Assembly: GCA_024449915.1 (NCBI GenBank)
Contig: JAMZAV010004581.1
Span: 1-64,000 of the forward strand
Direction: 5' to 3'
Source: Sweltsa coloradensis
Lineage: Eukaryota > Arthropoda > Insecta > Plecoptera > Chloroperlidae
Length of the DNA stretch: 64,000 nt
Positions 5,015 through 41,343 of the stretch are shown here, one piece after another; position 1 is the stretch's first letter; each line of letters opens with the position of its first letter. Both the position numbers and the translations under genes were made by a program. The notes under the pieces are model-generated. The model made no database searches. It was not told where the DNA came from and saw nothing but the letters and a program-made list of their open reading frames with translations.

Positions 5015-5286
5015 ACCTGAAGCTAGAGAAACCAAATGCACTTGGAATTTAAAAAGGGTAACTGGAAGGAGTACAGAAGAATTACCGAAGAACTATTCCT
5101 GGAATTTGAATCAAGGGAAAACATTGATTTAGTCAACCAGAAAATTATAGATATCATGCAAACAGCTGCAGAAAAAAACTGTACCTAGAGGAAAACAAAC
5201 AATTACAAACCGTTCTGGAATGAACAACTACAAACTCTGAAACAACAAGAGATCAAGCAAGGAAAACTGCAGAACAAACTCAAGAC

Positions 5287-8094: not shown

Positions 8095-8096
8095 TA

Positions 8097-8979
8097 TTGG
8101 GAATGAGGCAATTAACAATAGACAAGACCTCCTACCACCAAACATAAATGTTGCATTGTTAGAAATCCACATGCATTGACAATACCTGACATCGACGGTA
8201 AGAAAAACAACCACTCATTGGTTCAACTATAGAAATTGACATTGGCATACATTCGCCAGAAATACCCAGAAAATGAATGGCTACATCTGTATACAGATGG
8301 ATCAGCATCCCCAGGGGAAGGAAATGCGGGCGCAGGGATATACAGCCGAGAATTTAAGGCTTCCTACCCAGCTGGTGCTAATGGAAGCAATTATGATGGA
8401 GAAATCCGAGCAATAGTTGAAGCACTATTGAAACTATCAAAATCTGAAAACCGGAAAATTGTGATCCTATCCGACTCCAAGACTGCCATTGCAGCCATTG
8501 CAAATAGGGAGGAAACAGAACCCGAAATTAGACAATGTAAACTACAGATTCTACGACTCATGAATGATGGGAACAAAATTGTGCTACAATGGATACCGGC
8601 CCACTGTGGCATATATGGTAATGAGAAGGCCGACTACCTAGCCAAACAAGGTAGCAAAAAGCAACAAGAAAGTAAAAAACTGTCACATAAATCTCTCAAA
8701 TCTCACCTGCATGCGTCGACAGACAAAGCAGTCGGTAAGGAATGGCAAGAGAGGGGGCAGAATAAACTTTGGGAAGATTACACTAGAATGAGGCCGACTG
8801 GTAAACGTAAGTGCTACAGTAGAAAAATAGAGACAGCTCAATTCCGGCTTCAAACAGGACACGACCTACTCGGAAAGCACCTCCATAGATTTGGAATTTT
8901 TGAATCTAGTGTCTGTCGGATGTGTGGAGCTGGGGAACAAGACAGAAAACATCTTTTTCAATGCATATATAAAGCTTGA
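8097..8979 (+). pseudogene. LINE RNase H domain and C-terminal zinc knuckle
   Basis: The longest open stretch (8236-8979) holds a type I RNase H: LYTDGSASPGEG with the first Asp, YDGEIRAIVEAL with the Glu, VILSDSKTAIAA with the second Asp and NEKADYLAKQG with the last Asp, so the DEDD set is complete. A knuckle CRMCGAGEQDRKHLFQC follows. The segment before 8236 continues the reverse-transcriptase C-terminus but has a stop near 8176. The domain itself is well kept despite the decay elsewhere. Confidence 0.88.
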
Positions 8980-11625: not shown

Positions 11626-11842
11626 TTGATGTGCGCCTTGTGGCTTAATAGCAGCTAACTTCACTCAATTGTTAATTGTTATTTATATTTTCTGTAGGAA
11701 CTCGGCTTGATACGTGAACGAGTTCATTACAATCAAGCCACCTGGCACACATCTCGCATGAATTATGTAATATTTTGCTTTTACTTCATGGTGTTCGTCA
11801 GTGCACGTCGTGTTTATATCCGACTTGTTTCTCTTTGATCAG

Positions 11843-12004
11843 GTGGAGAAGGACGACCACGATTGGTACTGTTCGGAATGTCACAGCGGAGGAGACGTTA
11901 TCTGCTGTACGACTTGCTATCGTGTATATCACTTGGCCTGCATCACCACAGAAGAGTTGCCAGATGAAGACGTTAAGAATACCTTCATTTGTATCATGTG
12001 CAAG
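11843..12004 (+). CDS. ZMYND11: ZMYND11 PHD-finger exon
   Basis: Acceptor gatcag at 11842; 54 codons. The exon is a complete PHD finger: WYCSEC, then GGDVICCTTC, YRVYHLAC, and CIMC at the end, giving the C4HC3 zinc-ligand series. In ZMYND11 this finger precedes the bromodomain and forms part of a PHD-bromo-PWWP cassette that engages chromatin. The 3' boundary is unusual: the sequence is AAG followed by GCAAGT, a classic GC-AG donor, with no GT donor at the right place. Reading on would give an unrelated tail and a stop at 12029-12031, whereas splicing at GC joins in frame to the next exon and matches human spacing. Confidence 0.93.
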
Positions 12005-12010
12005 GCAAGT
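12005..12010 (+). promoter_or_regulatory. GC-AG splice donor of the PHD-exon intron
   Basis: The donor reads AAG|GCAAGT, the consensus for the minor GC-AG class of U2 introns. The intron ends at the normal acceptor at 14588. Use of this donor is required to keep the frame from CIMCK into MCDTKKKD. Confidence 0.85.
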
Positions 12011-12680
12011 TCATTACAGTTTCAATTGTAATGTGCCGTAAAACATTCTGTATGTTTTTTGGATGCTCCATTTGGGTCCGAATTTGATCTATAGCTTACA
12101 TGTCCAAAGGAACAATAAAGCACTCTATGGGTGCTTACGGAAACCTCAAGAATCGATCGGATTCAACCCACTTGATCCTTCTTTTTCAGGGATCACTTAG
12201 ATCCAACCTGATTATGTGGTCTGACGGATCTTTTAAGCTTTTCGAACGCAGATACTTTCAATCGGGCTGGTTTCCGAATTACAGTTTATGTCTGGATCCG
12301 ATCTGGTTAACCAGATCAAGGCTGGTTTCCGTAAACACCCTATACTATCCTAGTGAAACCCTACAGAAACATGAACCGAAAGCAAGTATTACCAGTACTA
12401 ATTTGAAATTTTGACTACCGGTAACTACAAGTAGTACTACTACATAGTCTATTTTCGGAAGCAATTTTAGAGTGAGTTTGTGTTTTATAATTTTGGATGG
12501 GTTCTAGTGGATTGAGGTTGGTGTTGTGATCCCTTGGTCATGTAGGCCTACTGGCCTACTTCTTACCTGTAATAGACTATAGTAGGCCTACACCTTCTTC
12601 AGAAGTAAAAGTCTTGTCACAACTCACAAATTTCATGCTGTATTTTAGGAACAAAACCGTCCACAATGTGTTTTACATTA
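12011..12680. other. Intron sequence without recognised elements
   Basis: Within the GC-AG intron. Contains several GATCCGA / TCGGATC-type words at 12150-12320 (ATCGATCGGATTCAACC, GGTCTGACGGATC, GTCTGGATCCGATC), which look like a degenerate inverted-repeat element. AGGCCTA words at 12545-12590. No exon seen. Confidence 0.3.
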
Positions 12681-12912
12681 ATAGTAGAAGTAGAAATCTT
12701 TATTTAGCATTTTGCTATTTTTACATACACACAATACACATACACAAGCATATAATTTTACAATTTACTTTTACATATTCAAGAAATTCAGTCCTCAATG
12801 GACCAGACTGTACGGCTGGCATTTACATTGAATCATTCAAAGCATTAAAATGGTCACAATTTACATTATAAACTTTTTGACTAACTAGGCCTACACTAAT
12901 ATTAAAATATAA
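12681..12912 (-). mobile_element. LINE 3'-end fragment, family with ACT-type tail
   Basis: Shares AGAAATCTTTATTTAGCATT and the following ~200 bases with 17292-17500, including TTCAGTCCTCAATGGACCAG. The short AGTAGAAGTAGAA run is the tail. Only 3' UTR is present here. Confidence 0.7.
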
Positions 12913-12945
12913 AATCACAAACTACCGCCAAGCTTGGATGCAATA

Positions 12946-13756
12946 TAGGAAGCTTCGCAAACGCTTTTTCATGCGCTTTGTTGGATGAGTCTAATTTTTT
13001 AAAACGAAAAAAGCGTAAAATTGCGATTTTCATGAGAAATAATTTTTCGATTACGCTCAAATTTCACACGAATATATTAATTCATAAAATTAAGGTTATG
13101 TGAAAAAATAATTACAATCTGATAAAGCATGTCGGTGTTATAAGTCGAAGAAATTTTCAAATTTTTTTTTTTTTGTAAAATTGCGATTATCGTGAGAAAT
13201 AATTTTTCTATTTCGCTCAAATTTCACACGAATATATCAATTCATAAAATTAAGGTTCTGTAAAAATATCATAACAATCGGATAAAGCATGTAGGCCGAG
13301 GTGTTATATAAGTCGAAGAAATTAAAATAATTGTAAAACTGTGATTTTCATGAGAAATAATTTTTCGATTACACTCAAATTTCACACGAATATATTAATT
13401 CATAAAATAAAGGTTCTGTGAAGAAAATCATCACAATCGGATAAAGCAAGTAGATGTTATAAAGTCGAAGAAATTTAAATTTTATTATTATTTATTTATT
13501 TATTTTATTTTATTTTATTTTTTATTTTTTAAATTTGTGATTTTTATGAGAAATAAGTTTTCGATTGCGCTAAAAAACGTGGCAGTTCTAAGTTTAGAGA
13601 TTTCAAAGTCCTCCAGAAAATTTCATCGCAATTGGTGTATCGGTTTAGCCGGAATCGTGTTAACAGACAAACAAAAATTAAAAAAAAAAAACATTAGTGA
13701 TTTTTTTCTCCAGTGTAGTGAAATGGAATCTTTGCTTCGCTCGCTACCCTCATCCA
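12946..13756 (-). mobile_element. Helentron-like element with three internal ~155-bp repeats
   Basis: On the minus strand it starts TGGATGAGGGTAGCGAGCG at 13756 and ends near 12946 with a diverged CATCCAACAAAGCGC..AAGCG..CTTCCTA end. Inside are tandem copies, about 150-160 bases each, of the segment with ACGAATATATTAATTCATAA and AATCGGATAAAGCATG (13066, 13232, 13388). AT-rich, non-coding. Confidence 0.7.
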
Positions 13757-13771
13757 ATTATCGGGTATTAC

Positions 13772-14452
13772 TAGAGGTAGTGAGAAATGGTGTTATAAAA
13801 ACCCTAATTTCGTTTTATTCAACCTAAATTTCGCGTTTTTCGCGATTTCATTTAAATAATCAAAAACATCTAAAAAAAAACAATTTTTTTAAAATCAAAA
13901 TTTTGAAAAAAGGGGACCTTTTAGTAGGGATGACATCAATTCCAATGAGTTAGAATCGATCATTGTGACCCACAAATCTATTCAGAATCGATTCCCAAGC
14001 AAAAATAAATATTTGTACGCACCATTATTTTGGTGGACTATTGCCGCGGAGTCCGTGATACGCGTCGTTATTTTGACGGTCTATTTCCGTGGAGCCAGTG
14101 ACGTCACAAAACGATGTACCGCCCGCTGCGCGCATAATGTTTTCGGTCTAGACCGGCACCTCAACCAAAATTCACAAAAATTTTGGACCGGCACCTCCAC
14201 TATCCCCCCACATTTTGAGCACTAAAATGTTTAATTTTCGCGAGTTAATTCGCGTTTTGCCCAGTTTTATACAATTTGGTTCGTTATCTCGCGATATACA
14301 CGAGATTTCGCGAAATTCGCGTTTTCAAAATGTGTTTTTTCCATCTCTAAATGATGTAATTCGTCGACAATATTACCTTTTAGGCAATAAAATGGATATT
14401 TAAAAAAATTCGCGAATTTCGTTATCACCATTTTTCACTACCTCTAGCTCTA
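13772..14452. mobile_element. hAT-type MITE, TSD GGTATTAC
   Basis: Perfect 8-bp duplication GGTATTAC at 13764-13771 and 14453-14460. Ends TAGAGGTAGTGAGAAATGGT and ACCATTTTTCACTACCTCTA are inverted repeats; the right end carries 8 extra bases (GCTCTA..). It inserted 8 bp outside the 5' end of the Helentron-like element at 12946-13756. A hAT fragment TAGGGATGACATCAATTCC lies within it at 13926. Confidence 0.8.
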
Positions 14453-14588
14453 GGTATTACTGTCTTCCTGCAACCAGCATTTAGTAATGCACTGCATCAT
14501 TAGTGACTTTCAGCTTCACCCAGGTAGACTACAAATTTATGTATAGTATTTACAATATTTATCATCCTGGTTTTTGCTATTTTTGCAG

Positions 14589-14678
14589 ATGTGTGACACA
14601 AAGAAGAAGGACATGAAATTGAAGAAGCGCACACTCAATCACCTACTGCGTTTTGCTTGCGCTCGTATGAAGGACAGA
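14589..14678 (+). CDS. ZMYND11: ZMYND11 exon, start of bromodomain
   Basis: Acceptor tttttgcag at 14588, donor aga|gtgagt. Thirty codons reading MCDTKKKDMKLKKRTLNHLL and then RFACARMKDR. Human ZMYND11 has a Lys-rich segment followed by GTYLRFIVSRMKER at this place, which is the first helix of the bromodomain. Both junctions are on codon boundaries. The reading frame stays open after the donor to 14816, but that tail (SVCSLSEGREL onward) has no counterpart in the family and runs into a hAT element at 14770, so it is intronic. Confidence 0.9.
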
Positions 14679-14769
14679 GTGAGTGTTTGTAGTCTGAGTG
14701 AAGGCCGTGAATTGCCTGCAAATAATATTGATTTACAACTTTCCAATACCCTACCTAATAGGCCTACCC

Positions 14770-15541
14770 CAGGGCTGCCACTGACATTTAAAAAAAATCC
14801 TGTTGGAGGACGTTAAAAATCCGCAAAAATCCATAAAAAGTCTAAAAACGTTAATTTCATTGATCAAACTATGAAAATGGCTAAATGTTATGTTTATATT
14901 TGTTACCATCATAAGCTAAAAGTTGCCAAGGGCCTAGGCCTATGCACAGACGAGAATAAATGAGCCAGAAACGCCCGTGGTTGCTTTAATTAAGATTGCA
15001 TAAAAATGTAAAATGTTACTTATTTACAGAAAATCTATTTTAAATCTGACTTGGTTAAAAAATTCTTAGGCCTAGCCCCTAGGCCTAGCCGCCTAGGCCC
15101 TGGGAATGTTGCATCACAATTTTGACCTAGGCCCATGTGTTGTGTTTATTAATAACATTGCAGTCTTGCAGAACTTGTTAATAACATTTTAATCATGTAC
15201 TAATTTTATTTTTCACTTTTATGATCACATAATCTTTACTTTATAAACAAAAACTAAAGAAAACAATTTTGTAGGCTCCAATCTCCATTGTTTGTTCTTG
15301 GCTCCGCCCCAAAGCAACTGTTGGCAAAAGCAGTTCCTACAATGTCTAGGACACGGGGCCTTTGCTCCACCCCCTATCGAAAGTCAAATCGAAATTAGCC
15401 CGCGCAGATTCAAATATACAAAAATAAGCATAGAAAACGTAATTAACGAAATATCCGTAAATAAGACTAAAAATCCGTTTATCCGTTTTGCACCCTAAAT
15501 ATCCGTAAAAACGGATAAAATCCGTTAAAACGGCAGCCCTG
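14770..15541. mobile_element. hAT-type element, TSD GCCTACCC
   Basis: Perfect 8-bp duplication GCCTACCC at 14762-14769 and 15542-15549; ends CAGGGCTGCC and GGCAGCCCTG. The subterminal ATCCGTTTTAACGG-type words match the element at 23782-24518, so the two belong to one family. No transposase. Confidence 0.85.
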
Positions 15542-15549
15542 GCCTACCC

Positions 15550-16125
15550 TATCAACTGTACTAATATTCAGTAAACCTATCTAATCCCTCTTTAATTCAA
15601 ATTTTAAACCATTACCTACATAATTACAGTTTGAATTTAAAAAAATGGGGTAGGTCTTATCATAATTAAGAAAGTTAACATTAGGGGATAGGAGCTACTT
15701 ACTGTATTTATGCTAGTACAGGCCTCAAGTAGGCCTATAGTATTACAAATTATCAAGTTCAAAATGTGGGGTGCAACCATTGTGTGAAGCCGTTTGTCAA
15801 TAGTATTTAATATTGATGTCCTACTCTTCAAAATATGAGTGGTCACAAAAAAGATTCGGCCATTACTCTAGGGCGACCTATAAGCGAGTAAATAGAATAC
15901 CTAATACATATTGGCCTAGGCTTACCTAATGCTCTAAGTTGTACCCCTTGATTGATCAACGACCTTTCTTTCAATTCAACATTCAGTTAAGTAGGTTGTG
16001 TCAAAGGGATTGCTATATCCCGCCGCCCCTCATTTTCCTCAAAGCGTTGTGAAAAATCCCTTTTTCTAGGTAATAATAAACTTTGCACTTACTAAAAATA
16101 CTTCTTTCTCTTGCCTCCTGCCCAG
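15550..16125. other. Intron sequence, nothing identified
   Basis: AT-rich intron with scattered AGGCCT words; ends in the acceptor of the bromodomain exon. Confidence 0.4.
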
Positions 16126-16405
16126 CTTCCCGCGGCGCTGATGGACCGCCAAGTTCCGTCGACCGCCACATACATGTCTGACCGGTCGTCAGCCTCCGGT
16201 CAGTGTCTCTCTCAACGAGCCAGCAGCGACGGCTTGGGCTGGGTGACCGACCAAGACGACGCCTGGCGCAGTCAGTTTCTCATCTACCGACCCATGGATC
16301 TGAAGGCGATCGAGGAGAAGACGGACGGAAACAAGTACAAACTGGTTGAAGAGTTCCAGGCAGACGCGCAGACAATCGTGCACAACGTCGTCATTTACCA
16401 TGGAG
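16126..16405 (+). CDS. ZMYND11: ZMYND11 bromodomain exon
   Basis: Acceptor gcccag at 16125, donor g|gtgaga at 16406 (phase 1). The exon codes 93 residues plus one base. The C-terminal half carries bromodomain sequence: YRPMDLKAIEEKTDGNKYKL, then EEFQADAQTIVHNVVIYHG, matching human [35 protein letters not shown]. The N-terminal half (LPAALMDRQVPS.. through DDAWRSQ) is longer and more polar than the ~20 residues in the human protein, so a lineage-specific insertion lies between the first bromodomain helix and the ZA region. It is notably GC-rich compared with the flanking introns. Confidence 0.92.
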
Positions 16406-16564
16406 GTGAGAGAGATTCGTGTACACGGGTACCAATGTTTCATTATTTTTAACTATAAGTATCAGCTCGCCGGGTGAGACCGTCTCGTATTGGTGGTAGA
16501 GGTTTCTAAGATTCTGGAGTGTGACTCGTTGGTTAATTGGGTATTTATTTATTTATTTATTTGA

Positions 16565-17224
16565 TTAAGGCTGTTGTACCACCTCTGGCCGATAATTTGA
16601 AAGTCGAAGAAACATGTCTGAAAAGTTTGCTGAATGAAAGAAGGCCTTTAAAATAACAAAAAAAAATTGTGAATTTTTGGGGGCGGGACATAACCTCACT
16701 TTTGGAAATTATATTTAGATTTTTGGACAAAAGTGTAATACACAATTGTCTAGTTCAAAATTAAATTTTGAGAATCGGTTTTCTGGACATAGTTTCTAAA
16801 CACCTTTAGCTATAACTTGACTATAGCTAAAATAGTTTTCTGAAAATAATAGTTGGTGTACGATTTTTTTTCAAACGGTACCAATACGAGTTTTTTCCAG
16901 TTTTGTACCGTTTGACAAAAAATTTATACACCAACTGTTATTTTCAGAAAACTATTTTAGCTATAGTCAAGTTATTTATAGCTAAAGGTGTTTAGAAACT
17001 ATGTCCAGAAAACCGATTCTCAAAATTTAATTTTGAACTAGACTTGTATATTACACTTTTGTCCAAAAATCTAAATATAATTTCCAAAAGTGAGGTTATG
17101 TCCCGCCCCAAAAAAATCACAATTTTTTTCTGTTATTTTAAAGGCCTTCTTTCATTCAGCAAACTTTTCAGACATGTTTCTTCGACTTTCAAATTATCGG
17201 CCAGAGGTGGTACAATAGCCTTAA
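16565..17224. mobile_element. 660-bp foldback MITE with TTAA duplication
   Basis: TTAA at both ends (16565-16568, 17221-17224). Arms of about 310 bases are near-perfect inverted repeats from GGCTGTTGTACCACCTCTGG to the central loop at about 16880-16905 (GTACCGTTTG/CAAACGGTAC pairs near the loop). TTAA targets point to piggyBac or Kolobok mobilisation. A related end is seen at 43070-43130. Confidence 0.85.
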
Positions 17225-17236
17225 CGTCTATCCTAC

Positions 17237-17240
17237 CTAT

Positions 17241-17291
<51 letters not shown>
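17237..17291 (+). repeat. (AGT)n microsatellite, tail of a LINE
   Basis: About 17 uninterrupted AGT units immediately next to the 3' end of a minus-strand LINE fragment; on that strand the tail reads (ACT)n. Confidence 0.9.
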
Positions 17292-17662
17292 AAATCTTTA
17301 TTTAGCATTTTGCTATTTTTACATACACATACACAAGCATATAATATACAATTTACTTTTACATTTTCATTAAATTCAGTCCTCAATGGACCAGACTGTG
17401 CTTCTGGCATTTACATTGAATCATTCAAAAAGCATTAAAATGTTCACAATTTACATTATCAACTTTTCAACTAACTATTCCTACACTAATATTAAAATAA
17501 TAAGCAAGTCACTTTCTTAAGATATCCTACAATACTACGTTCTACAGATGTTAGACTTAGAATATAACACTATAATGAACAATTTCTGTCTCATATTAGG
17601 TAATTGAGATGACCACTATAGATAGGTTACCTGTGGCCACCTCACATTTTCATTTTATCACA

Positions 17663-17866
17663 TTAACTTGGTTTAGTCCAGAAATCCTCAGTACCAGTAA
17701 CATCTCTATTCCATCCACATCCTTTAACTATCTTACAGCAATTAACTCTAAATCTGTTTATCTCTTGCACGTTTCTTACTTCTAATGGTAACCTGTTAAA
17801 TATTCTCATCCCTTTTGCAAAAATAGTGTTATTTCCAAATTTAGTGCTATTTCTTTGAATGATCAT
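17663..17866 (-). pseudogene. LINE ORF2 C-terminal fragment
   Basis: Sixty-odd residues ending DFWTKPS with FAKGMRIFNRLPLEVRNVQE, a typical C-terminal signature of CR1/jockey-group polyproteins. No catalytic motif remains. Confidence 0.7.
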
Positions 17867-18296
17867 GTAAAAAACTGATCCTCCAATGATGGCGGTCCCA
17901 ATTTTCTATCATTCCTTCTGACAAAATTTGAACTTCTTTAAAAAATTGTCCATCATTAGGATAGTTATGTATTTAGGTCTGTTAAAAAGTTGTTCCATAT
18001 TATCCTTGTCGATGCATGCATCATCTACAGCTGAATTGTGGCCAACCAATGGTCCTCTTTTTTAATTTTTTAAATATTTATCGCTGGTTGGCATTATTTG
18101 CTCAATGTGCTTGCATTGATAGTGTTAGTTCGTAGACCGTACTTTTTTAGTTTTTTTAGTCCCCCAATGAGAATGAGTTTTTATAGCCAAGTGGGTGGTT
18201 TTGAAATGCAAATAATGTTTTAATTTTAATTTTATTAGACAGTAGACACTGTGCCTTATTCTGAATAGTGACTACAATGTGTTGTGTGTTTATCAG

Positions 18297-18493
18297 TTAA
18301 CAGCGGTCTTGCGGATATAGCCCGTCAGATGCTGCGCGATTGCATCTATGATCTCCAAGAGATGGTCCAGTGTGCAGATTGTTACCGTTACTCAAACGAG
18401 AAGAAAGGCAAGCACTGGTTCTGCCAACTCTGCAAAACTCCACATCAACTGGTCTATGCAAAACAAAAAACATTCCCATTCTGGCCAGCCAAG
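18297..18493 (+). CDS. ZMYND11: ZMYND11 exon: bromodomain end, zinc finger, PWWP start
   Basis: Acceptor tttatcag at 18296; donor aag|gtaatc. Two bases complete the split codon, giving GVNSGLADIARQML, the same length as human GADSEQADIARMLY. Then come CADC and CQLC, the CxxC pair of zinc ligands between bromodomain and PWWP, and the start of PWWP, LVYAKQKTFPFWPAK. The FWPAK motif holds aromatic residues of the methyl-lysine cage in the family. The exon is 65 codons and ends on a codon boundary inside PWWP. Confidence 0.94.
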
Positions 18494-19934
18494 GTAATCA
18501 TAGTCAAACTCTATTTTCACGTTCATTTAGTAGGACGTTTTCACGTCGAACGAGTGGTCCGGTTCACATTGACTACTATATAATATATGATCACTGTGTA
18601 ATGTATATGGATGAGTTCAATATTAATAGAATAGGTATGGTTAGGTATCAGTACCAATAAATAGAGACTATGATATTTTATAGCAACAACAACAAACAAT
18701 TGATTGTTACTTTTCCTCTTGCCGACTCCCATTCCTTGCCATTAAATGTTTTTTTGCTATAAATGCTATAAAAATAACATCGAAGCTATTATGCTATTTT
18801 TACAATAATTAATGCTACCTACATTTCTTAAATAAAAGCAAATTACTAATGAGTAATGAGTAATGAGAATGACATACTCACATACATGACTGAGTAATGA
18901 TTAGGTAGCCTAATGAATAATGATGGGAAAGGGTTTGAAAGCCTAAGATTTTCAAGTCGAACTGAGTATTAAAAAGAAAGCTTGATTTTCGAGTTTTAAA
19001 ATCTTCTTAATTTCTTTCAGTCTTAACACTGGACTCAAGGTTGCAGCAATTTAAAAATACTAATGAAATAGAACCACTAGTACTGCACTGTACAATAATT
19101 CTCTTGATTAAAAGTGACCCACAACATTATTTTACCAATGTTATGTTAAATAAATTGATTACCCTCGCTGTATAAACTTTGTATGTCAAATCCTAATATC
19201 AGTGTGAACTAACTGTGAGTTGCCTTGTATTGTTTACATTATGACTTATGAGATAAGATAAAGAAGTACTACGTACACAGATATCAACAGACAGACAGAG
19301 CTGTAACTTCTCCTTCACTCTGTGCTCATTCTCTTTCTCACACCACTACAGTTACACAAGTAAGGTCAGACTCAGAAGGTGTCGAGTTACACTGAAATTA
19401 CTGATGCAGATAGGCCTAAGGCTCAGGTTTGAGTCTAAAATGAAGAGTCATGAGTCATATTGGTATTTAAACTGACATAAGTAGCTTCTTTTAACTAAAC
19501 TTCACTCATTTAAAGCAGCTATTTATGCCAGTTGAGTTTACCAATAAGACACACAATCACTCTTATTGAGTCTGGCAAGATTAGTATGCACATTTTTATG
19601 CCCTAGATAATGGTGGTTTAACAGTTTCTATTTTTTTATTTACTATAGGATACTGATTTATTTGTATATGTTTGTATTGTTTTAAATTGTGATGAATGTC
19701 TATTATTTGTAATTGTTAAGTTTTAGTTACCTGACACTTGTGAGTTGGTAAGTTAACCTGTTGTTAAAGGATATAGAGAATATAATAAGCTCGGCTTGAG
19801 GCAAAACACACACCCCTAAAAGATAGTCTTGCCTCTTTGGATCTTCTTTTCTTCCGTGTACTTCAAGTAGGCAAACCATCTTGCTGCATGATAATTATGT
19901 AATGTCCCAAATACATTGATGTTCTTTTCTGTAG
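18494..19934. other. Intron inside the PWWP-coding region
   Basis: 1.44 kb; GAGTAATGA short direct repeats at 18848-18900; no recognisable transposon or exon. Confidence 0.4.
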
Positions 19935-21496: not shown

Positions 21497-21689
21497 GTGA
21501 GTGTTCTAACCTTACATATTGGATCACACTACAAAATACCGGTTCAACTTGTCAGAATCTGCTGAGCAAAGGAACGGCCGTAGGCCATCTAGCAAGTATG
21601 TCTACTTTCTATAGACCAGCCTGAGGGTTCAATCCTTGTGCACTAGGTTATACTAGTAACTACTAATACACTTTGGATGTGATTGTTAC

Positions 21690-22640
21690 AATTAGGAAAA
21701 GGCCAATCGGCTAGTTTAGTATGATTGGAGAAGGGTTGACAGGTTGGAAAAGCATAGAGAACGTAAAAAACGTAAAACCCAGCCTGAAGGGCTGGGGGTG
21801 ACAAAACTTTTCACCTGCTGATGACAACTGTAGCTAATTTAAAGCTGTTTGTTACCTTAATCCACAACACGTTTCGTCCTTCTGGGACTCGCCAGGCAGA
21901 TGGTGGCCACTAAAAATCAGCTAACTACATGCAAACAAAACTCACAGCACATAACCAAACCTGTGGTAGGGCCACGCAAGAAGTAAATTCTGCATGCATG
22001 TTGTCATCATCAGCAAGGTTACTTCACACACCATTCATACTGGGGCACACAGTCAGCACAGACAGTAAGGGGGCTTCCCTCCCAACTCTGGTGCTCGGGA
22101 GACAAGAAATCCATGACTTACCCTGGATTTGAACCAGGACCCTTGGCAACAAGAGAAAAGCTGCTGCTGCTGGGCAAGGGTGCCTCTTCATTCATTCTAA
22201 GAGAAAAGGTTAGAGATAGGAAGGGTGGAAAGTCACAACACAGCACAACCAGTGAGGGGGCTTCCCTCCTAGACTCTGGTGCTTGGGCGACAAAAGAACC
22301 ATGACTTACCCTGGATTTGAACCAAGACCCGTAGCAACGAGAGAGGCTGCGCTACTAATTGTGACTGGGATTCGAAAACGAAAGGAAACAATACTACAAA
22401 TTGCAAGCTCTTGGCTATAGCACAGGCACACGTGCTATACTAGCTCTTGGCTGCAGGTGAAGAGGTTGAAGGAAAAGACGAGTAGAGTCTAACAGGTTCA
22501 TCACCTGCTAGGCCCCCCCAGCAGGACAAGGAGTCACACTAGTAAGAAACAAGGAAACACGGACCCACCAGAGGGTGTAGAGTAGGCTCGCCCATCTCGA
22601 CCCCATAGGTGAAGAAAGATAGAAAGTGAAAGAGGTGTTA
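21690..22640 (-). repeat. Solo ~950-bp copy of the ribozyme repeat
   Basis: Collinear with one unit of the 30.1-35.6 kb array from CAATTAG..GGCTAGTTTAG to GAAGAAAGATAGAAAGTG. It differs by small indels and shows that a single unit can exist outside the array. Flanks share only a short ATTGTTA word, so a target duplication is uncertain. Confidence 0.85.
21860..21901 (-). ncRNA. Degenerate hammerhead motif in the solo repeat
   Basis: Corresponds to the hammerhead of the array. Stem II GUCC/GGAC and GAAAC are kept, but the core reads CUGGCGA instead of CUGANGA (A6 lost) and the cleavage-site triplet reads GUU instead of GUC. Likely inactive. Confidence 0.7.
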
Positions 22641-30085: not shown

Positions 30086-30227
30086 TTGTCATGTTATTGG
30101 TTTAGATTGGGAAGGGTTGACAGGTTGGGAAAGCATAGAGAACATAAAGCCCAGCCTGAAGGGCTGGGGGCGACAAAACTTTTCACCTGCTGATGACAAC
30201 TGTAGCTAATTTAAAGTTGTTACCTTA

Positions 30228-30269
30228 ATCCACGACGCGTTTCGTCCTTCTGGGACTCTTCAGGCGGAT
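30228..30269 (-). ncRNA. Hammerhead ribozyme (type I, minimal stem III), unit 1
   Basis: Read on the minus strand: stem I AUCCGC, core CUGAAGA, stem II GUCC-CAGAA-GGAC, GAAA, stem III AC-GC-GU, cleavage C, stem I GUGGAU. All invariant positions are present (C3 U4 G5 A6 N7 G8 A9, G12 A13 A14, A15.1-U16.1, H17=C). Predicted cut after GUC, between 30234 and 30233. Stem III of two pairs is self-complementary (ACGCGU), as in dimer-active hammerheads of Penelope elements and newt satellite. Confidence 0.88.
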
Positions 30270-31194
30270 GGTGGCCACTAAAAATCAGCTAACTACATGC
30301 AACCAAAACTCACAACACATAACCAAAACCTTGTGGTAGGGCCACGCAAGAAGTAAATTCTGCAAGCATGTTGTCATCATCAGCAAGGTTACTTCACACA
30401 CCATTCATACTGGGGCACACAGTCAGCACAGACAGTAAGGGGGCTTCCCTCCCAACTCTGGTGCTCGGGAGACAAGAAATCCATGACTTACCCTGGATTC
30501 GAACCAGGACCCTTGGCAACAAGAGGAAAGCTGCCCCTCCTGCTGTTGCTGGGCAAGGGTGCCTCTTCATTCATACAAAGAGAAAAGGTTAGAGATAGGA
30601 AGGGTGGAAAGTCACAACACAGCACAACCAGTGAGGGGGCTTCCCTCCTAGACTCTGGTGCTTGGGCGACAAAAGAACCATGTCTTACCCTGGATTTGAA
30701 CCAAGACCCGTGGCAACGAGAGAGGCTGCCCTACTAATTGTGACTGGGATTCGAAAACGAAAGGAAACAAGACTACAAATTGCAAGCTCTTGGCTATAGC
30801 ACAGGTACACGTGCTATATTAGCTCTTGGCTGCAGATGAAGAGGTTGAAGGAAAAGACGAGTAGGGTCTAACAGGTTCATCACCTGCTAGGCCCCCCCAG
30901 CAGACAAGGAGTCACACTTGTTATGAACAAGGAAACACGGACCCACCAGAGGGTGTAGAGTAGGCTCGCCCATCTCGACCCCATAGGTGAAGAAAGATGG
31001 AAAGTGATAGGTGTCAAATGACTTGGTTGTTCAATTAGTTTGGAAAAGGCCAAATGGCTAGTTTAGTTTAGATTGGGGAAGGGTTGACAGGTTGGGAAAG
31101 CATAGAGAACATAAAGCCCAGCCTGAAGGGCTGGGGGCGACAAAACTTTTCACCTGCTGATGACAACTGTAGCTAATTTAAAGTTGTTACCTTA

Positions 31195-31236
31195 ATCCAC
31201 GACGCGTTTCGTCCTTCTGGGACTCTTCAGGCGGAT
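31195..31236 (-). ncRNA. Hammerhead ribozyme, unit 2
   Basis: Identical to the unit 1 motif. Confidence 0.88.
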
Positions 31237-32157
31237 GGTGGCCACTAAAAATCAGCTAACTACATGCAACCAAAACTCACAACACATAACCAAACCTGTG
31301 GTAGGGCCACGCAAGAAGTAAATTCTGAAAGCATGTTGTCATCATCAGCAAGGTTACTTCACACACCATTCATACTGGGGCACACAGTCAGCACAGACAG
31401 TAAGGGGGCTTCCCTCCCAACTCTGGTGCTCGGGAGACAAGAAATCCATGACTTACCCTGGATTCGAACCAGGACCCTTGGCAAACAAGAGAAAACTGCC
31501 CCTCCTGCTGTTGCTGGGCAAGGGTGCCTCTTCATTCATACAAAGAGAAAAGGTTAGAGATAGGAAGGGTGGAAAGTCACAACACAGCACAAACCAGTGA
31601 GGGGGCTTCCCTCCTAGACTCTGGTGCTTGGGCGACAAAAGAATCATGTCTTACCCTGGATTTGAACCAAGACCCGTGGCAACGAGAGAGGCTGCCCTAC
31701 TAATTGTGACTGGGATTCGAAAACGAAAGGAAACAAGACTACAATTGCAAGCTCTTGGCTATAGCACAGGTACACGTGCTTATTAGCTCTTGGCTGCGAT
31801 GAAGAGGTTGAAGGAAAAGACGAGTAGGGTCTAACAGGTTCATCACCTGCTAGGCCCCCCCCAGCAGGACAAGGAGTCACACTTGTTATGAACAAGGAAA
31901 CACGGACCCACCAGAGGGTGTAGAGTACGCTCGCCCATCTTTGACCCATAGGTGAAGAAAGATGGAAAGTGATAGGTGTCAAATGACTTGGTGTTCAAAT
32001 TAGTTTGGAAAAGGCCAAAGGCTAGTTTAGTTTAGATTGGGGAAGGGTTGACAGGTTGGAAAAGCATAGAGACATAAAGCCCAGCCTGAAGGGCTGGGGG
32101 CGACAAAACTTTTCACCTGCTGATGACAACTGTAGCTAATTTAAAGTTGTTACCTTA

Positions 32158-32199
32158 ATCCACGACGCGTTTCGTCCTTCTGGGACTCTTCAGGCGGAT
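32158..32199 (-). ncRNA. Hammerhead ribozyme, unit 3
   Basis: Identical to the unit 1 motif. Confidence 0.88.
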
Positions 32200-33118
32200 G
32201 GTGGCCACTAAAAATCAGCTAACTACATGCAACCAAAACTCACAACACATAACCAAACCTGTGGTAGGGCCACGCAAGAAGTAAATTCTGCAAGCATGTT
32301 GTCATCATCAGCAAGGTTACTTCACACACCATTCATACTGGGGCACACAGTCAGCACAGACAGTAAGGGGGCTTCCCTCCCAACTCTGGTGCTCGGGAGA
32401 CAAGAAATCCATGACTTACCCTGGATTCGAACCAGGACCCTTGGCAACAAGAGAAAAGCTGCCCATCCTGCTTTGCTGGGCAAGGGTGCCTCTTCATTCA
32501 TACAAAGAGAAAAGGTTAGAGATAGGAAGGGTGGAAAGTCACAACACAGCACAACCAGTGAGGGGGCTTCCCTCTAGACTCTGGTGCTTGGGCGACAAAA
32601 AGAACATGTCTTACCCTGGATTTGAACAAGACCCGTGCAACGGAGAGAGGCTGCCCTACTAATTGTGACTGGGATTCGAAAACGAAAGGAAACAAGACTA
32701 CAAATTGCAAGCTCTGGCTATAGCACAGGTACACGTGCTAATATTAGCTCTTGGCTGCAGATGAGAGGTTGAAGGAAAAGACGAGTAGGGTCTAACAGGT
32801 TCATCACCTGCTAGGCCCCCCCAGCAGGACAAGGAGTCACACTTGTTATGAACAAGGAAAACACGGACCCACCAGAGGGTTGTAGAGTAGGCTCGCCCAT
32901 CTCGACCCATAGGTGAAGAAAGATGGAAAGTGATAGGTGTCAAATGACTTGGTTGTTCAATTAGTTTTGGAAAAGGCCAAATGGCTAGTTTAGTTTAGAT
33001 TGGGGAAGGGTTGACAGGTTGGAAAGCATAGAGAACATAAAGCCCAGCCTGAAGGGCTGGGGCGACAAAACTTTTCACCTGCTGATGACAACTGTAGCTA
33101 ATTAAAGTTGTTACCTTA

Positions 33119-33160
33119 ATCCACGACGCGTTTCGTCCTTCTGGGACTCTTCAGGCGGAT
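33119..33160 (-). ncRNA. Hammerhead ribozyme, unit 4
   Basis: Identical to the unit 1 motif. Confidence 0.88.
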
Positions 33161-34082
33161 GGTGGCCACTAAAAATCAGCTACTACATGCAACCAAAACT
33201 CACAACACATAACCAAACCTGTGGTAGGGCCACGCAAGAAGTAAATTCTGAAAGCATGTTGTCATCATCAGCAAGGTTACTTCACACACCATTTATACTG
33301 GGGCACACAGTCAGCACAGACAGTAAGGGGGCTTCCCTCCCAACTCTGGTGCTCGGGAGACAAGAAATCCATGACTTACCCTGGATTCGAACCAGGACCC
33401 TTGGCAACAAGAGAAAAGCTGCCCCTCCTGCTGTTGCTGGGCAAGGGTGCCTCTTCATTCATACAAAGAGAAAAGGTTAGAGATAGGAAGGGTGGAAAGT
33501 CACAACACAGCACAACCAGTGAGGGGGCTTCCCTCCTAGACTCTGGTGCTTGGGCGACAAAAGAACCATGTCTTACCCTGGATTTGAACCAAGACCCGTG
33601 GCAACGAGAGGCTGCCCTACTAATTGTGACTGGGATTCGAAAACGAAAGGAAACAAGACTACAAATTGCAAGCTCTTGGCTATAGCACAGAAACACGTGC
33701 TATATTAGCTCTTGGCTGCAGATGAAGAGGTTGAAGAAAGACGAGTAGGGTCTAACAGGGTTCATCACCTGCTAGGCCCCCCCAGCAGGACAAGGAGTCA
33801 CACTTGTTATGAACAAGGAAACACGGACCCACCAGAGGGTGTAGAGTAGGCTCGCCCATCTCGACCCCATAGGTGGAAGAAAGATGGAAAGTGATAGGTG
33901 TCAAATGACTTGGTTGTTCAATTAGTTTGGAAAAAGGCCAAATGGCTAGTTTAGTTTAGATTGGGGAAGGGTTGACAGGTTGGGAAAGCATAGAGAACAT
34001 AAAGCCCAGCCTGAAGGGCTGGGGGCGACAAAACTTTTCACCTGCTGATGACAACTGTAGCTAATTTAAAGTTGTTACCTTA

Positions 34083-34124
34083 ATCCACGACGCTGTTCGT
34101 CCTTCTGGGACTCTTCAGGCCGAT
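34083..34124 (-). ncRNA. Hammerhead motif, unit 5, core damaged
   Basis: The GAAAC-GC-GUC segment reads GAACAGCGUC and stem I reads AUCGGC, so the A13-A15.1 region and one stem I pair are altered. Probably inactive. Confidence 0.7.
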
Positions 34125-34512
34125 GGTGGCCACTAAAAATCAGCTAACTACATGCAACCAAAACTCACAACACATAACCAAACCTGTGGTAGGGCCACGC
34201 AAGAAGTAAATTCTGCAAGCATGTTGTCATCATCAGCAAGGTTACTTCACACACCATTCATACTGGGGCACACAGTCAGCACAGACAGTAAGGGGGCTTC
34301 CCTCCCAACTCTGGTGCTCGGGAGACAAGAAATCCATGACTTACCCTGGATTCGAACCAGGACCCTTGGCAACAAGAGAAAAGCTGCCCCTCCTGCTGTT
34401 GCTGGGCAAGGGTGCCTCTTCATTCATACAAAGAGAAAAGGTTAGAGATAGGAAGGGTGGAAAGTCACAACACAGCACAACCAGTGAGGGGGCTTCCCTC
34501 CTAGACTCTGGT

Positions 34513-35588
34513 GCCCAGCCCTTCAGGCTGGGCTTTATGTTCTCTATGCTTTCCCAACCTGTCAACCCTTCCCCAATCTAAACTAAACTAGCCATTTGGC
34601 CTTTTCCAAACTAATTGAACAACCAAGTCATTTGACACCTATCACTTTCCATCTTTCTTCACCTATGGGGTCGAGATGGGCGAGCCTACTCTACACCCTC
34701 TGGTGGGTCCGTGTTTCCTTGTTCATAACAAGTGTGACTCCTTGTCCTGCTGGGGGGGCCTAGCAGGTGATGAACCTGTTAGACCCTACTCGTCTTTTCC
34801 TTCAACCTCTTCATCTGCAGCCAAGAGCTAATATAGCACGTGTACCTGTGCTATAGCCAAGAGCTTGCAATTTGTAGTCTTGTTTCCTTTCGTTTTCGAA
34901 TCCCAGTCACAATTAGTAGGGCAGCCTCTCTCGTTGCCACGGGTCTTGGTTCAAATCCAGGGTAAGACATGGTTCTTTTGTCGCCCAAGCACCAGAGTCT
35001 AGGAGGGAAGCCCCCTCACTGGTTGTGCTGTGTTGTGACTTTCCACCCTTCCTATCTCTAACCTTTTCTCTTTGTATGAATGAAGAGGCACCCTTGCCCA
35101 GCAACAGCAGGAGGGGCAGCTTTTCTCTTGTTGCCAAGGGTCCTGGTTCGAATCCAGGGTAAGTCATGGATTTCTTGTCTCCCGAGCACCAGAGTTGGGA
35201 GGGAAGCCCCCTTACTGTCTGTGCTGACTGTGTGCCCCAGTATGAATGGTGTGTGAAGTAACCTTGCTGATGATGACAACATGCTTGCAGAATTTACTTC
35301 TTGCGTGGCCCTACCACAGGTTTGGTTATGTGTTGTGAGTTTTGGTTGCATGTAGTTAGCTGATTTTTTAGTGGCCACCATCCGCCTGAAGAGTCCCAGA
35401 AGGACGAAACGCGTCGTGGATTAAGGTAACAACTTTAAATTAGCTACAGTTGTCATCAGCAGGTGAAAAGTTTTGTCGCCCCCAGCCCTTCAGGCTGGGC
35501 TTTATGTTCTCTATGCTTTCCCAACCTGTCAACCCTTCCCCAATCTAAACTAAACTAGCCATTTGGCCTTTTCCAAACTAATTGAACA
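34513..35588 (+). repeat. Inverted terminal repeat unit of the array
   Basis: Reverse complement of a complete unit plus a second copy of the unit start. Two related segments inside (around 34919-35030 and 35115-35225) each carry a tRNA-like T-arm: CCTGG-TTCGAAT-CCAGG at about 35150 and CTTGG-TTCAAAT-CCAGG at about 34955. In the direct units the same T-arms lie on the minus strand. Confidence 0.85.
35380..35421 (+). ncRNA. Hammerhead ribozyme in the inverted unit, sense to ZMYND11
   Basis: Same intact 42-nt motif but on the + strand: AUCCGC at 35380, CUGAAGA at 35386, GUCC/GGAC stem II, GAAAC at 35406, predicted cleavage after C35415. It is in the transcribed orientation of the ZMYND11 intron. 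Confidence 0.88.
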
Positions 35589-35645
35589 TTGTCATGTTAT
35601 TGATTAGATGAAGTAGGCTAGTCTGCTTGACCAGAACTTGTGGGA

Positions 35646-35767: not shown

Positions 35768-37809
35768 TGGATGAGCGTAGCCAGCGTAGCGAGCGAAGCG
35801 AAGATTCCATTTCACTACACTGGGGAAAAAAATCCGGAATGTTTTTTTTTTTTTTTGTATTTTTGTGTGTCTGTGAACACGATTCCGGCTAAACCAATAC
35901 TCCAATTGCGATGAAATTTTATGGAGGTCTGTGAAATCTCTGAACGAAGAACTGCACGGGGGGAAAAATCGATCAAAAAATTATTTCTCATGAAAATCGC
36001 GATTTTACGATTTTTTTAGATTTTTAAAAAAATTCTTCGACTTATAACATCTACATGCTTTATCCAATTGTAATGATTTTTTCACAGAACCTTAATTTTA
36101 TGAATTAATATATTCGTGTGCAATTTGAGCGAAATCGAAAATTTCTTTCTTGTGAAAATCGCAATTTTATGATTTTTTTCAATTTTTAACATTTCTTCGA
36201 CGAATAAAACCTACATGCTTTATCCGATTGTAATGATTTTTTCACAGAACTTTAATTTTATGAATTAATATATTCGTGGGAAATTTGAGCGTAATCGAAA
36301 AATTATCTACAGTAAGAACTCTCTTATCCGATCTCCGCTTATCCAATGTACCGTGTTAACCGACCTAACGCCGCTTTATCTTCTAGATACGTAGCGCGTT
36401 TAGACATTTATTAGGGCTCACCGCCTGGGTAATCCATTGATTCCTTGATAATTCCTATCAAAATCCTAGCAAAGGCAGTGAGCCCAAGGTCTTGGTAACC
36501 ATGGCAACCAGAGTCGATAAAGAAGTTTCCCCGGTTTATTGTCGGTAATCAACTCAAGGACCAAACAAAGTACAATGTTGAATATACAAATTTGCAGATA
36601 AGTAAGGTATTATTCATTGACAATGGATGTTATAATATATATACATTTTTATATTAGATATTATCATTATTAGGCGTAGGTTCATGCCTCAGGCAAACTA
36701 TTAGAATATATTAAATTGCTTGACATGGATTTGACTACATCCAGTTACATACTTTTGGACGGTGAGAACGCCACATTTCTAGGGCGGTGAGTCCCAGAAA
36801 TTTTTAACACACGAACATCCAAACGCGCTTCTCTATTAACGTAGTTAATAAGATCTAGGTTCTCTAAACCGACCCGCCCCCCCCCCCCAAAAAAAAAAAA
36901 AAAAAATTTAAGTTTTAAATACATAAATAAAATATAAAAATAATTACAGACGCCGCGCCGCACTTTTTTAAATGTACTCGCATACATTTGTAGGCATGCC
37001 TTACGAGTGAGTGCAAAGAAGATAGATCGGCGATATATCTCGACTTTCGAGCAGTGTGCATCAGTGTACTGAGCATATAGAGTTCAGTGGTCAGTGTGCG
37101 TCGGGCGCATCGCCGGTAAGCGTCAGTGTCACCCACTGAGCATATAGAGATCAGTGTGCGTCGCGCGCCTGCGCGTGCGCATACGATCCAGCCATCTCAC
37201 ACACAGCTGTTCAAAGATGGTCGTTGTGGAACTAGATGCAATCATGTTTCAACCAATTCACGAAATTCGTAATCAAAACGCATTGAATTGTTATTCCTGG
37301 GCTTATCTTATTTCTTTCCCAGACTTATCTTGCGTCGTGAGCTTCAGCGCGGGCATAATAGCTGTGATAATAGTGAGAGATTTTCCCACATGAGAAAGAG
37401 AGCTAGGCCTATGTTTGCATTGTAGGCCTAGGCCTACTGCGTCGAGTTTAGGCCTAGACATACGTTTTTATTACGACATGTAGGCCTAATTGTGTACGTG
37501 TGTTTGTGAGCTTGATTTACAAGCTATTAAATCATTTAGTATACCCTGTATGAAGTGTATCGTGTGTATTTTATGTCCCTTTATCCATTACATGTGTCAT
37601 CATTTTACCACATCAGGCTATGCTACGAGAGCAAATAAACAAATGAACCGCGCCATCCGAGTTTTTCGCAAATCCGAGGTGCCCCCGGTCTCATCCAACT
37701 CGGATAAGAGAGTTCTTACTGTATTAAAAAAATCGCAATTTTACGCTTATTTCGTTTAAAAAAAATTACGCTCATCCATCAACGCGGCGGGACTTAAGCG
37801 TTTTCCTAG
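35768..37809 (+). mobile_element. Helentron-like element with nested pogo-like element
   Basis: Starts TGGATGAGCGTAGCCAGCG and ends GGCGGGACTTAAGCGTTTTC then CTAG before T. Interrupted at 36310-37721. Contains the ~155-bp tandem segments (TATGAATTAATATATTCGTG at about 36098 and 36257). Confidence 0.75.
36310..37721. mobile_element. pogo/Tigger-like element A (1.41 kb)
   Basis: Ends CAGTAAGAACTCTCTTATCC and the complement, both flanked by TA (36308-36309, 37722-37723). The motif CAGTA..CTCTCTTATCCGA is typical of pogo-group termini. It shares its right two-thirds with element B (39697-40607) but has about 500 extra bases after the left end, including a C/A homopolymer (36880-36905). Confidence 0.85.
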
Positions 37810-38560: not shown

Positions 38561-39336
38561 TGGATGAGCGTAGCGAGCGAAGCGAAGATTCCATTTCACT
38601 ACACTGGAGAAAAAAATCCGGAATGTTTTTTTTTTTTTCTTTCTTTCTCTCTTTCTGTATTTTTGTCTGTTTGTTAGCACGATTCCGGCTAAACCGATAC
38701 TCCAATTGCGATTAAATTTTATGGAGGCCTTCAAAATCTCTGAACTTAGAACTGCCACGTTTTTGAGCGCCATCGAAAAATTATTTCTCATAAAAATCGC
38801 AATTTTACGATTTTTTTTCGATTTTTTGAAAATTTATTTTACTTATAACATCTACATGCTTTATCCGATTTTAATGATTTTTTCACAGAACCTTAATTTT
38901 ATGAATTAAGATATTCGTGTGAAATTTGAGCACAATCGAAAAATTATTTCTAATGAAAATAGAAACTTTGTGTTTTTTTTCTTTTTTAAAACAATTTTTT
39001 TACTTATTACACCTACATGCTTGATCCTATTGTAATAAGTTTTTCACAGAACCTTAATTTTATTAATTTATATATTCGTGTGAAATTTGAGCGCAATCGA
39101 ATAATTATTTCTTATAAAAATCCCAATTTTTTTATTTTTTCTTTTTTTAAAATTACGATTAATTAAAAAAATTTAAAATTTAAGTTTATTTTTTATTAAA
39201 TTTAATTTAATTTTAAAAAAATTTGAACTTAGTAATAATTTTTTCACAGAACAACAGAAAATCCGCATAACACATGGCAGCTCAATGCACCAATACGCTC
39301 ATCCAACAACGCGGCGGGACTTAAGCGTTTTCCTAG
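38561..39336 (+). mobile_element. Helentron-like element (full, uninterrupted)
   Basis: TGGATGAGCGTAGCGAGCG to TTTTCCTAG, inserted between T and T; 776 bases with two to three ~155-bp internal tandem segments. It occupies the same place in copy 2 that the element at 23320 occupies in copy 1, but in the opposite orientation relative to its host. Confidence 0.8.
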
Positions 39337-39696: not shown

Positions 39697-40607
39697 CAGT
39701 AAGATCTCTCTTATCCGATCTCCTCTTATCCGATGTTCCGTGTTAACCGAGCCGCCAAAAAAAAAAAAAAAAAAAAAAAAAAATTAAAGTTTTAAATACG
39801 TAAATAAAACATAAAAATAATTACAGACGCCGCGCCGCACTTTTTTAAATGTACTCGCATACATTTGTAGGCATGCCTTACGAGTGAGTGCAAAGAAGAT
39901 AGATCGGCGATATATCTCGACTTTCGAGCAGTGTGCATCAGTCTACTGAGCATATAGAGTTCAGTGGTCAGTGTGCGTCGGGCGCATCGCCGGTAAGCGT
40001 CAGTGCCACCCACTGAGCATATAGAGGTCAGTGTGCGTCGCGCGCCTGCGCGTGCGCATACGATCCAGCCATCTCACACACAGCTGTTCAAAGATGGTCG
40101 TTGTGGAACTAGATGCAATCATGTTTCAACCGATTCACGAAATTCGTAATCACGACGCATTGAATTGTTATTCCTGGGCTTATCTTATTTCTTTCCCAGA
40201 CTTATTTTGCGTCGTGAGCTTCAGCGCGGGCATAGTAGTGAGAGGTTTTCCCACATGAGAAAGAGAGCTAGGCCTAGGCCTATGTTTGCATTGTAGGCCT
40301 AGGCCTACTGCGTCGAGTTTAGGCCTAGGCCTAGGCCTAGACATACGTTTTTATTACGACATGTAGGCCTAATTGTGTACGTGTGTTCGTGAGCTTGAAT
40401 TACAAGCTATTAAATCATTTAGTATACCCTGTATGAAGTGTATCGTGTGTATTTTATGTTCCTTTATCCATTACATGTGTCATATATCATTTTACCATCA
40501 AGGCTATGCTACGAGAGCAAATAAACAATTGATCCGCGCCATCCGAGTTTTTCGCAAATCCGAGGTGCCCCCGGTCTCATCCAACTCGGATAAGAGAGAT
40601 CTTACTG
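39697..40607. mobile_element. pogo/Tigger-like element B (911 bp)
   Basis: Ends CAGTAAGATCTCTCTTATCC and complement, TA on each side. Nearly the same interior as element A. Dense AGGCCT/CTAGGC cluster at 40267-40345. Confidence 0.85.
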
Positions 40608-41343
40608 TATTTAGTTTAGCCCTAAGCCTAGGCTACATTTAGACCTTTTCAGATCGAGACAATTTTTATAAACCCAACATGGCAGGCTCAAAGGTGGTTT
40701 CTAGGTTTTCGTCAATTTTGTCCCCAACCCCAAAGATGCTTTTTTGCCTCACATAAGCCTAGGCCCTAGGCTAAGCAGAGTTGTATGATACTGATACACT
40801 AGACTAGGCCGAAGCCTAGGACCAAACAGGATCTAGGCCTATAACATACTCTCACTGGGACATGACTTGAAGGCTCAGTATCATTGGGAAAAGCTTTATT
40901 TATCATGGACATGGACCTAGGACCTAAAAACTGAGTCCGGGACTAGGGGCCTAGGCCTAGGTTCAAATCCCGTCGTGACCGGCAAGTTGTATCCTAGCCT
41001 AGCTAGGCCTAGACCCTTTCGCATGGTATGGCCTAGGCTATGCCACACATCCATTTTGACACTTTTTATTGCTTCAAAACACAATTACAGATTAAAACAC
41101 TTATGTATTCAACAAAATAGCAAAGCATTGTATACATCGCGAGCGTAATTTGGCATCTAAGCGGCCATGACAGTGACGTTGAGTGACGTAGTGATGATAA
41201 GTCGATCATGCTTTAGTTCGACTTTCGATATTATTGGTCGACTAGTCGAGCAGGAATCGACCTTGAACTGATGTGTGCTTGCCGCCAACAACCAACAGCG
41301 CATTCACATGTCCACAATATTTAATACCACGCGTTTAAATAAT

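Follow-up and report, generated by a model that had tools for sequence, protein, structure and literature searches.

A non-coding, retrozyme-like 966-nt hammerhead element in Sweltsa coloradensis, probably inserted by Penelope-like machinery

Penelope-like elements (PLEs) have been proposed, on indirect grounds, as helpers of the hammerhead-bearing repeats called animal retrozymes (PMC7229834, PMC8969392). In a typical Penelope insert, direct pseudo-long terminal repeats (pLTRs) are accompanied by an inverted one, which may carry a 31-bp tail, and by a duplication of 9 bp; palindromes at the junctions of inverted copies and host genes carried between pLTRs have also been reported (PMC3846280). 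PAc, a Penelope-like enzyme from a lizard, acts on both DNA strands by cutting and extending them; it initiates internally in an AC-rich stem-loop, where two alternative sites account for a 30-40-bp tail, and its preferred targets are AT-rich, with ATT (PMC11167929). Here, we analysed a 64,000-nt stretch of the genome of Sweltsa coloradensis (Plecoptera; contig JAMZAV010004581.1, positions 1 to 64,000, hereafter referred to as the window) and found a block of 966-nt hammerhead units at 30100-35588, which is probably a single insertion of a non-coding, retrozyme-like hammerhead element made by Penelope-like machinery.

The block consists of 4.57 direct units, with the minus strand as the sense strand (30100-34514), and 1.11 inverted units on the plus strand (34515-35588). 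The direct part comprises a 68-nt partial unit (30100-30167), four complete units (30168-31134, 31135-32097, 32098-33060 and 33061-34022) and a 492-nt partial unit (34023-34514), while the inverted part comprises one full unit (34515-35481, 967 nt) and a further 107 nt (35482-35588). These boundaries come from the 966-nt consensus (majority of five units; GC content 48.6%) and an alignment of the pieces to it, which replaced an earlier unit alignment distorted by insertions and deletions (indels). The inverted part stands head-to-head with the direct part at the 5' end of the block, which reads, in sense orientation, as duplication, 1.11 inverted units, 4.57 direct units, duplication. At the inversion junction (34514/34515), the inverted part opens with a 17-nt hairpin read from the sequence, CCAGCC-CTTCA-GGCTGG (34515-34531), the first base of which is position 1 of our unit coordinates. 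An earlier note on this DNA had described a tandem array of a ~963-bp unit at 30101-35588; the repeat is real, with its start at 30100 and a slightly longer consensus, but the simple tandem arrangement does not hold, the inversion having been overlooked.

We then compared the window with all Rfam families using cmscan, with the gathering level of RF00163 (Hammerhead_1; 34 bits) as the cut-off. Five of the six hammerhead copies in the block exceeded it, each at 42.2 bits (E = 2e-7), and the best model was type I, not type III. The intact copies lie at 30228-30269, 31195-31236, 32158-32199 and 33119-33160 on the minus strand and at 35380-35421 on the plus strand, the last with a predicted cut at 35415/35416 (unit position 900/901). 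The sixth copy (34083-34124, minus strand) is degenerate and fell below the cut-off (23.8 bits), having lost A15.1 and one stem I pair, with substitutions at unit positions 868, 894 and 895; the 492-nt partial unit next to the inversion junction carries no substitutions other than these three, which damage its 42-nt hammerhead. In the direct part, the distances between the five successive cut-site anchors are 964, 961, 963 and 967 nt. Hammerheads at unit spacing, as the earlier note claimed, and the Infernal hit that it proposed as a check were both borne out, whereas its six copies with all invariant positions or close derivatives reduce to five intact ones.

The block is bounded by a 14-bp target-site duplication, TTGTCATGTTATTG, at 30086-30099 and 35589-35602. 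The two copies, at both outer edges, are identical at 14/14 positions, and the sequence has no third occurrence in the window on either strand; edges moved by 100 or 200 bases score 3-4, compared with 14 at the true edges. Because this exact duplication bounds the whole block, its sequence makes arrival by a single insertion event most likely. The target site reads TTATTG^ATTAG. In unit coordinates, the block ends at position 69 (direct part) and position 107 (inverted part), which are 38 nt apart and fall 135 and 173 nt, respectively, past the predicted hammerhead cut. The 38 nt in between (unit positions 70-107; 35551-35588, plus strand) form a 'tail'-like extension that is found at the inverted end only and not at the direct end. 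In A+C content, the 30 nt up to position 69 are among the highest 0.5% of the unit, and no poly-A or simple 3' tail was found at 30100. The duplication and the paired ends are absent from the earlier note and are added by the present analysis.

Two other copies in the window have an end inside this zone or close to it. An older dispersed single-unit copy (21689-22632, minus strand; 93-94% identical to the array units) has its 3' end at about unit position 103 (103-111 by alignment method, the latter with gaps) and holds a damaged hammerhead-like site (21860-21901; 27.8 bits) with an altered core and cleavage triplet. A 36-nt relic (57941-57976, plus strand; E = 1.7e-8) covers unit positions 38-73, exactly over 38-63, and ends near the end of the direct array, at unit position 63-76 depending on the alignment. 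Four ends thus fall inside 38-48 nt of the 966-nt unit, with a chance probability of 0.0003-0.0005 under uniform ends, or 0.005-0.007 when the block is counted once (three independent insertions). An older internal fragment (689-1087, minus strand) corresponds to unit positions 441-837 at about 86% identity; a lenient alignment extended it to position 895, and we rejected this extra stretch, which was no better than shuffles (P = 0.88). None of the ends found at these four loci lies at the hammerhead cut site, and the template would therefore have been uncut or ligated there.

The unit is non-coding, and no reverse transcriptase (RT) was seen in it, as the earlier note had stated. The longest open reading frame (ORF) has 126 codons in the circular consensus and up to 146 in single units, and none of the four unit frames tested matched Pfam. 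The combined RT and GIY-YIG ORF that marks an autonomous PLE is not present in the unit; from its sequence, the block looks not like an autonomous PLE itself, yet like one inserted by such an element. The retrozyme-like character proposed in the earlier note is likewise supported. Among the pieces of the block we counted 56 differences from the consensus (14 substitutions, 17 insertions and 25 deletions), with two variants common to two units within the block. Units u4 and u5p and the inverted unit differ at 4, 3 and 1 sites, whereas the inner units u1-u3, which are also included in the consensus majority, differ at 13, 16 and 18, chiefly by single-base indels. This excess looks like poorly polished long-read sequence, and the real units may therefore be nearly identical to each other.

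Each intact hammerhead of the block has six pairs in stem I and four in stem II, and its helix III is a single A-U pair closing a CGCG tetraloop within the palindrome ACGCGU. Because helix III is reduced to one pair closing a palindromic tetraloop, cleavage of the monomer is expected to be weak. In folding predictions, the 42-mer alone favoured a different fold by about 1 kcal/mol, and two copies with flanks of 0-8 nt or 30 nt had as their cofold optimum a double hammerhead whose intermolecular helix III has 6 bp; with 30-nt flanks, helix I extends into a long hairpin. The predicted behaviour, weak alone and better when paired, fits that reported for newt, axolotl and Penelope hammerheads (PMC7229834, PMC7761336, PMC6155905), and a missing or minimal helix III is also found in newt-type hammerheads (PMC7229834). 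The whole linear unit has a predicted fold energy of -314.9 kcal/mol, compared with -282.9 kcal/mol (standard deviation, 8.9) in 20 mononucleotide shuffles of the linear form, and the circle one of -309.9 kcal/mol. To gauge chance matches, we searched viral contigs for the core pattern alone, with the same palindrome; in the 21 stretches that matched, the longest run of pairs was three in stem I and two in stem II; since none had a full stem I or II, we took these matches as chance and not as relatives. The unit hammerhead pattern itself gave no match in the viral contigs or in the prokaryote genomes searched.

The block shares with animal retrozymes a type I hammerhead in each unit, tandem copies (from dimers up in retrozymes), the lack of an ORF, a duplication of more than 4 bp (when present in retrozymes; 14 bp here) and an expected unit-length RNA (PMC7229834). 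Its 966-nt unit falls outside their reported sizes (RNAs of 170-400 nt, repeats of 150-450 bp), which agrees with the earlier note's statement that it exceeds known animal retrozymes; however, the discussion of the same paper mentions circles of 150 to over 1000 nt (PMC7229834), and the statement stands for the former range only. The GC content of animal retrozymes is given as below 50% in the text and below 45% in Figure 1 of that paper, compared with 48.6% here, and the inverted unit and paired ends of the block are not among the retrozyme features described in its excerpts (PMC7229834). Similarly, the SMalpha/W-elements of Schistosoma combine a type I hammerhead with tandem satellite-like and dispersed short interspersed nuclear element (SINE)-like repeats, and a possible duplication surrounds one element, as at the block; the W29/W27.2 unit, however, measures 403 bp, and an inverted unit and paired ends are described for the block only, as far as the excerpted account goes (PMC8490949). 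Plant long terminal repeat (LTR) retrozymes have hammerhead circles of comparable size (600-1000 nt) but differ in their type III hammerhead within LTRs, 4-bp duplications, primer-binding site and polypurine tract (PMC4918200, PMC7761336, PMC7229834, PMC6155905).

The arrangement of the insertion, in contrast, resembles that of PLEs, which share tandem copies and an inverted 5' copy with the block (PMC3846280, PMC11167929, PMC7761336). Their optional tail of 30-40 nt compares with the 38 nt between the two block ends (PMC3846280, PMC11167929), the palindrome at the inversion junction of Penelope with the hairpin at which our inversion opens (PMC3846280), and their hammerhead nearly without helix III, which may act as a dimer, with the minimal helix III found here (PMC7761336). 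A short duplication is likewise shared (8, 9 and 10 bp in rotifers; 14 bp in the block). The block differs in lacking their RT-endonuclease ORF, usually of 800-900 codons, and in carrying more than four repeats of the whole unit within a single insert (PMC3846280, PMC11167929, PMC7761336). The AC-rich start zone of PAc agrees with unit position 69 and not with position 107, and the AT-rich, ATT preference of PAc may be compared with the target TTATTG^ATTAG (PMC11167929). The proposal of an undescribed class in the earlier note was therefore too strong, as this insertion anatomy has been published for PLEs (PMC3846280, PMC11167929). Among the literature matches listed, none of the titles or abstract openings mentions a hammerhead array of this length with a Penelope footprint.

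We favour Penelope-like machinery because the inverted 5' repeat, the optional 30-40-nt tail, the short duplication and the hammerhead almost without helix III are all published PLE features. Under this reading, the unit would be transcribed as a multimer, in which hammerheads could join in pairs by way of the self-complementary ACGCGU of helix III, with weak cleavage as the outcome. The RNA, released or uncut and possibly circularised, might then be captured in trans by a Penelope-like RT-endonuclease, which would cut both strands of an AT-rich target 14 bp apart. Reverse transcription would begin from both 3' ends, within the start zone that lies 135-173 nt past the hammerhead cut; one complementary DNA (cDNA) would extend over 4.57 units and the other over 1.11, and the two would meet head-to-head at the hairpin.

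Several observations weigh against this reading. In random flank pairs from the window, a fraction of 0.00085 of 20,000 attained the 14-bp score, which we put down to repeats in the window, so that chance matches between flanks are commoner than letter odds suggest. The block end at unit position 107 lacks AC-richness (A+C, 0.57; rank, 0.20). Around the dispersed copy at 21689-22632, the flanking repeat is imperfect (10/11 bp; chance, 0.01), and a gapped alignment shifts its start 39 nt earlier, which leaves its left edge uncertain; the fragment at 689-1087 ends at unit position 837, outside the shared end zone, and no clear target-site duplication was found around it or around the relic at 57941-57976. 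With flanks of 10-10 and 15-20 nt, the predicted dimer is other than the double hammerhead, and the folded 966-nt circle has stem I and no active core. For PAc, insertion in vitro persists when the hammerhead is mutated, and most of the substrate is RNA that has not been processed (PMC11167929); the ribozyme may therefore not matter for insertion. Furthermore, no Penelope-like RT-endonuclease was identified among the 24 of 99 window frames of at least 85 codons that were covered by Pfam testing; RVT_1, a general model, matched two of the window frames, in one case at a score below its cut-off, and neither frame is assigned to a family, while the frames flanking the block gave 0/10 Pfam matches. 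A crude GIY-YIG pattern also found no match in the six frames of the window, which is weak evidence for absence.

Four other explanations bear on the same observations. A quite credible one, although we would not bet on it, is that the element is an internal-deletion derivative of one autonomous PLE (a mini-PLE, mostly pLTR) that lies outside the retrozyme group. Its mechanism overlaps that of the favoured reading and its origin differs; the nearly missing helix III, the tail and the inverted copy would all be accounted for, and unrelated cargo between pLTRs is known (PMC3846280). However, no coding remnant was recognised in the unit (0/4 frames in Pfam), and the PAc ORF begins at stem II (PMC11167929), where the present unit has no ATG. 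An assembly artefact behind the copy number of the array or the inversion is improbable: the indel-heavy inner units (13, 16 and 18 differences versus 4, 3 and 1 elsewhere) are as expected of unpolished long reads, but a missed-adapter fold-back would mirror the flank, and the flanks have only the direct 14-bp repeat in common.

Insertion of the block by the enzyme of a long interspersed nuclear element (LINE) appears unlikely, although less remote than an artefact. Twin priming gives 5' inversions in L1, and the head-to-head segment could have arisen in this way, with the 14-bp duplication being of the ordinary LINE type; both features fit, and the RVT_1 and RNase H frames in the window are presumably LINE-like. 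Against this stand the lack of a poly-A or simple 3' tail and the fact that the inverted part stops no more than 38 nt away from the 3' start zone, which twin priming leaves unexplained (about 0.08 by chance), as it does the other copies ending near this zone. The tandem near-identical units could also be taken for satellite DNA expanded on site by unequal exchange, with the hammerhead as a passenger, and newts and cave crickets do have satellites with hammerheads (PMC7229834, PMC2837043); the exact duplication bounding the whole block, the inverted unit and the dispersed single-unit copy make this origin very improbable.

Within the favoured Penelope-like reading, the form of the template can be narrowed further, tentatively and with rather low confidence, to a circle: the block would then be the frozen product of reverse transcription around circular hammerhead RNA, in which a Penelope-like enzyme, priming from both strands of a single target, ran 4.57 rounds on one side and 1.11 on the other and the cDNAs were joined. 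The only substitution common to direct units, G773T, is present in unit 1 and again in unit 3 (the array reads G,T,G,T,G), and this alternation would fit a two-unit circle, at one site only and among error-prone units. A circular template would rest on the identity of the units and on uncut junctions; an uncut linear multimer, favoured by the PAc data, appears compatible with both. The unit variants are too error-prone to separate the two.

The earlier note had also reported tRNA-like arms in the unit, which proved to be T-arm/B-box sequences only. A 113-nt internal duplication (copies 84% identical) holds both B-boxes: a near match, GGTTCAAATCC, with one mismatch at 34948-34958, and the exact consensus, GGTTCGAATCC, in the second copy at 35145-35155 (both plus strand). 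In 1000 shuffles, matches of the two grades combined averaged 0.038 per shuffle, compared with one exact and one near match here; an A-box match, also with one mismatch, precedes the near B-box by 34 nt. No tRNA was found by ARAGORN in the window or by Rfam at E values up to 5. Loosened ARAGORN settings (70%) gave eight candidates in the doubled unit versus a mean of 6.1, a number reached by 18 of 60 dinucleotide shuffles, and two of the four candidates per unit cover the B-boxes. With ARAGORN and Rfam negative and the loosened search within the shuffle range, we rejected a full tRNA structure. Both B-boxes lie on the sense strand, and an RNA polymerase III transcript running through the hammerhead is unlikely because T-runs follow both of them (unit positions 462, 826 and 850), the last just before the hammerhead. 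The B-box region may represent an old SINE-like passenger, as its sequence suggests. Rfam rows for microRNAs, MIAT and small nucleolar RNAs inside the unit did not reach their cut-offs, and we regarded them as chance matches.

Elsewhere in the window, a PHD finger, a bromodomain and the weak start of a PWWP domain (below cut-off) follow in that order at 11771-18583 on the plus strand (Pfam), which is the domain order of a ZMYND11-like gene; the array may be located in or after this gene. Retroelement remains occupy 4136-8979 on the plus strand, with an RT frame at 6138-6563 and an RNase H frame at 8233-8979. A near-perfect inverted repeat at 60509-60621, for which several microRNA families score below cut-off, is probably a foldback element. 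In addition, a tandem motif of roughly 160 bp occurs at 13015-13489, 35972-36306 and 38762-39152, with roughly 370 bp between the start of one of its arrays and the right edge of the block, and an 860-bp direct duplication (93.7% identical) covers 36889-37725 and 39766-40611.

The enzyme that spreads animal retrozymes is unsettled in the literature cited here, PLEs being candidates on indirect grounds (PMC7229834, PMC8969392). In this context, an exact duplication, two ends in a start zone and an inverted arm constitute a testable footprint for the mobility of a non-coding element, which predicts that the same ends recur in other copies and that the partner element has the same 135-173-nt start zone. 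If the favoured reading is true, animal elements of this kind would reach about twice the unit size reported for them. If the circular-template reading is also true, a single locus would reveal both the enzyme, through its footprint, and the circular template of a retrozyme-like element.

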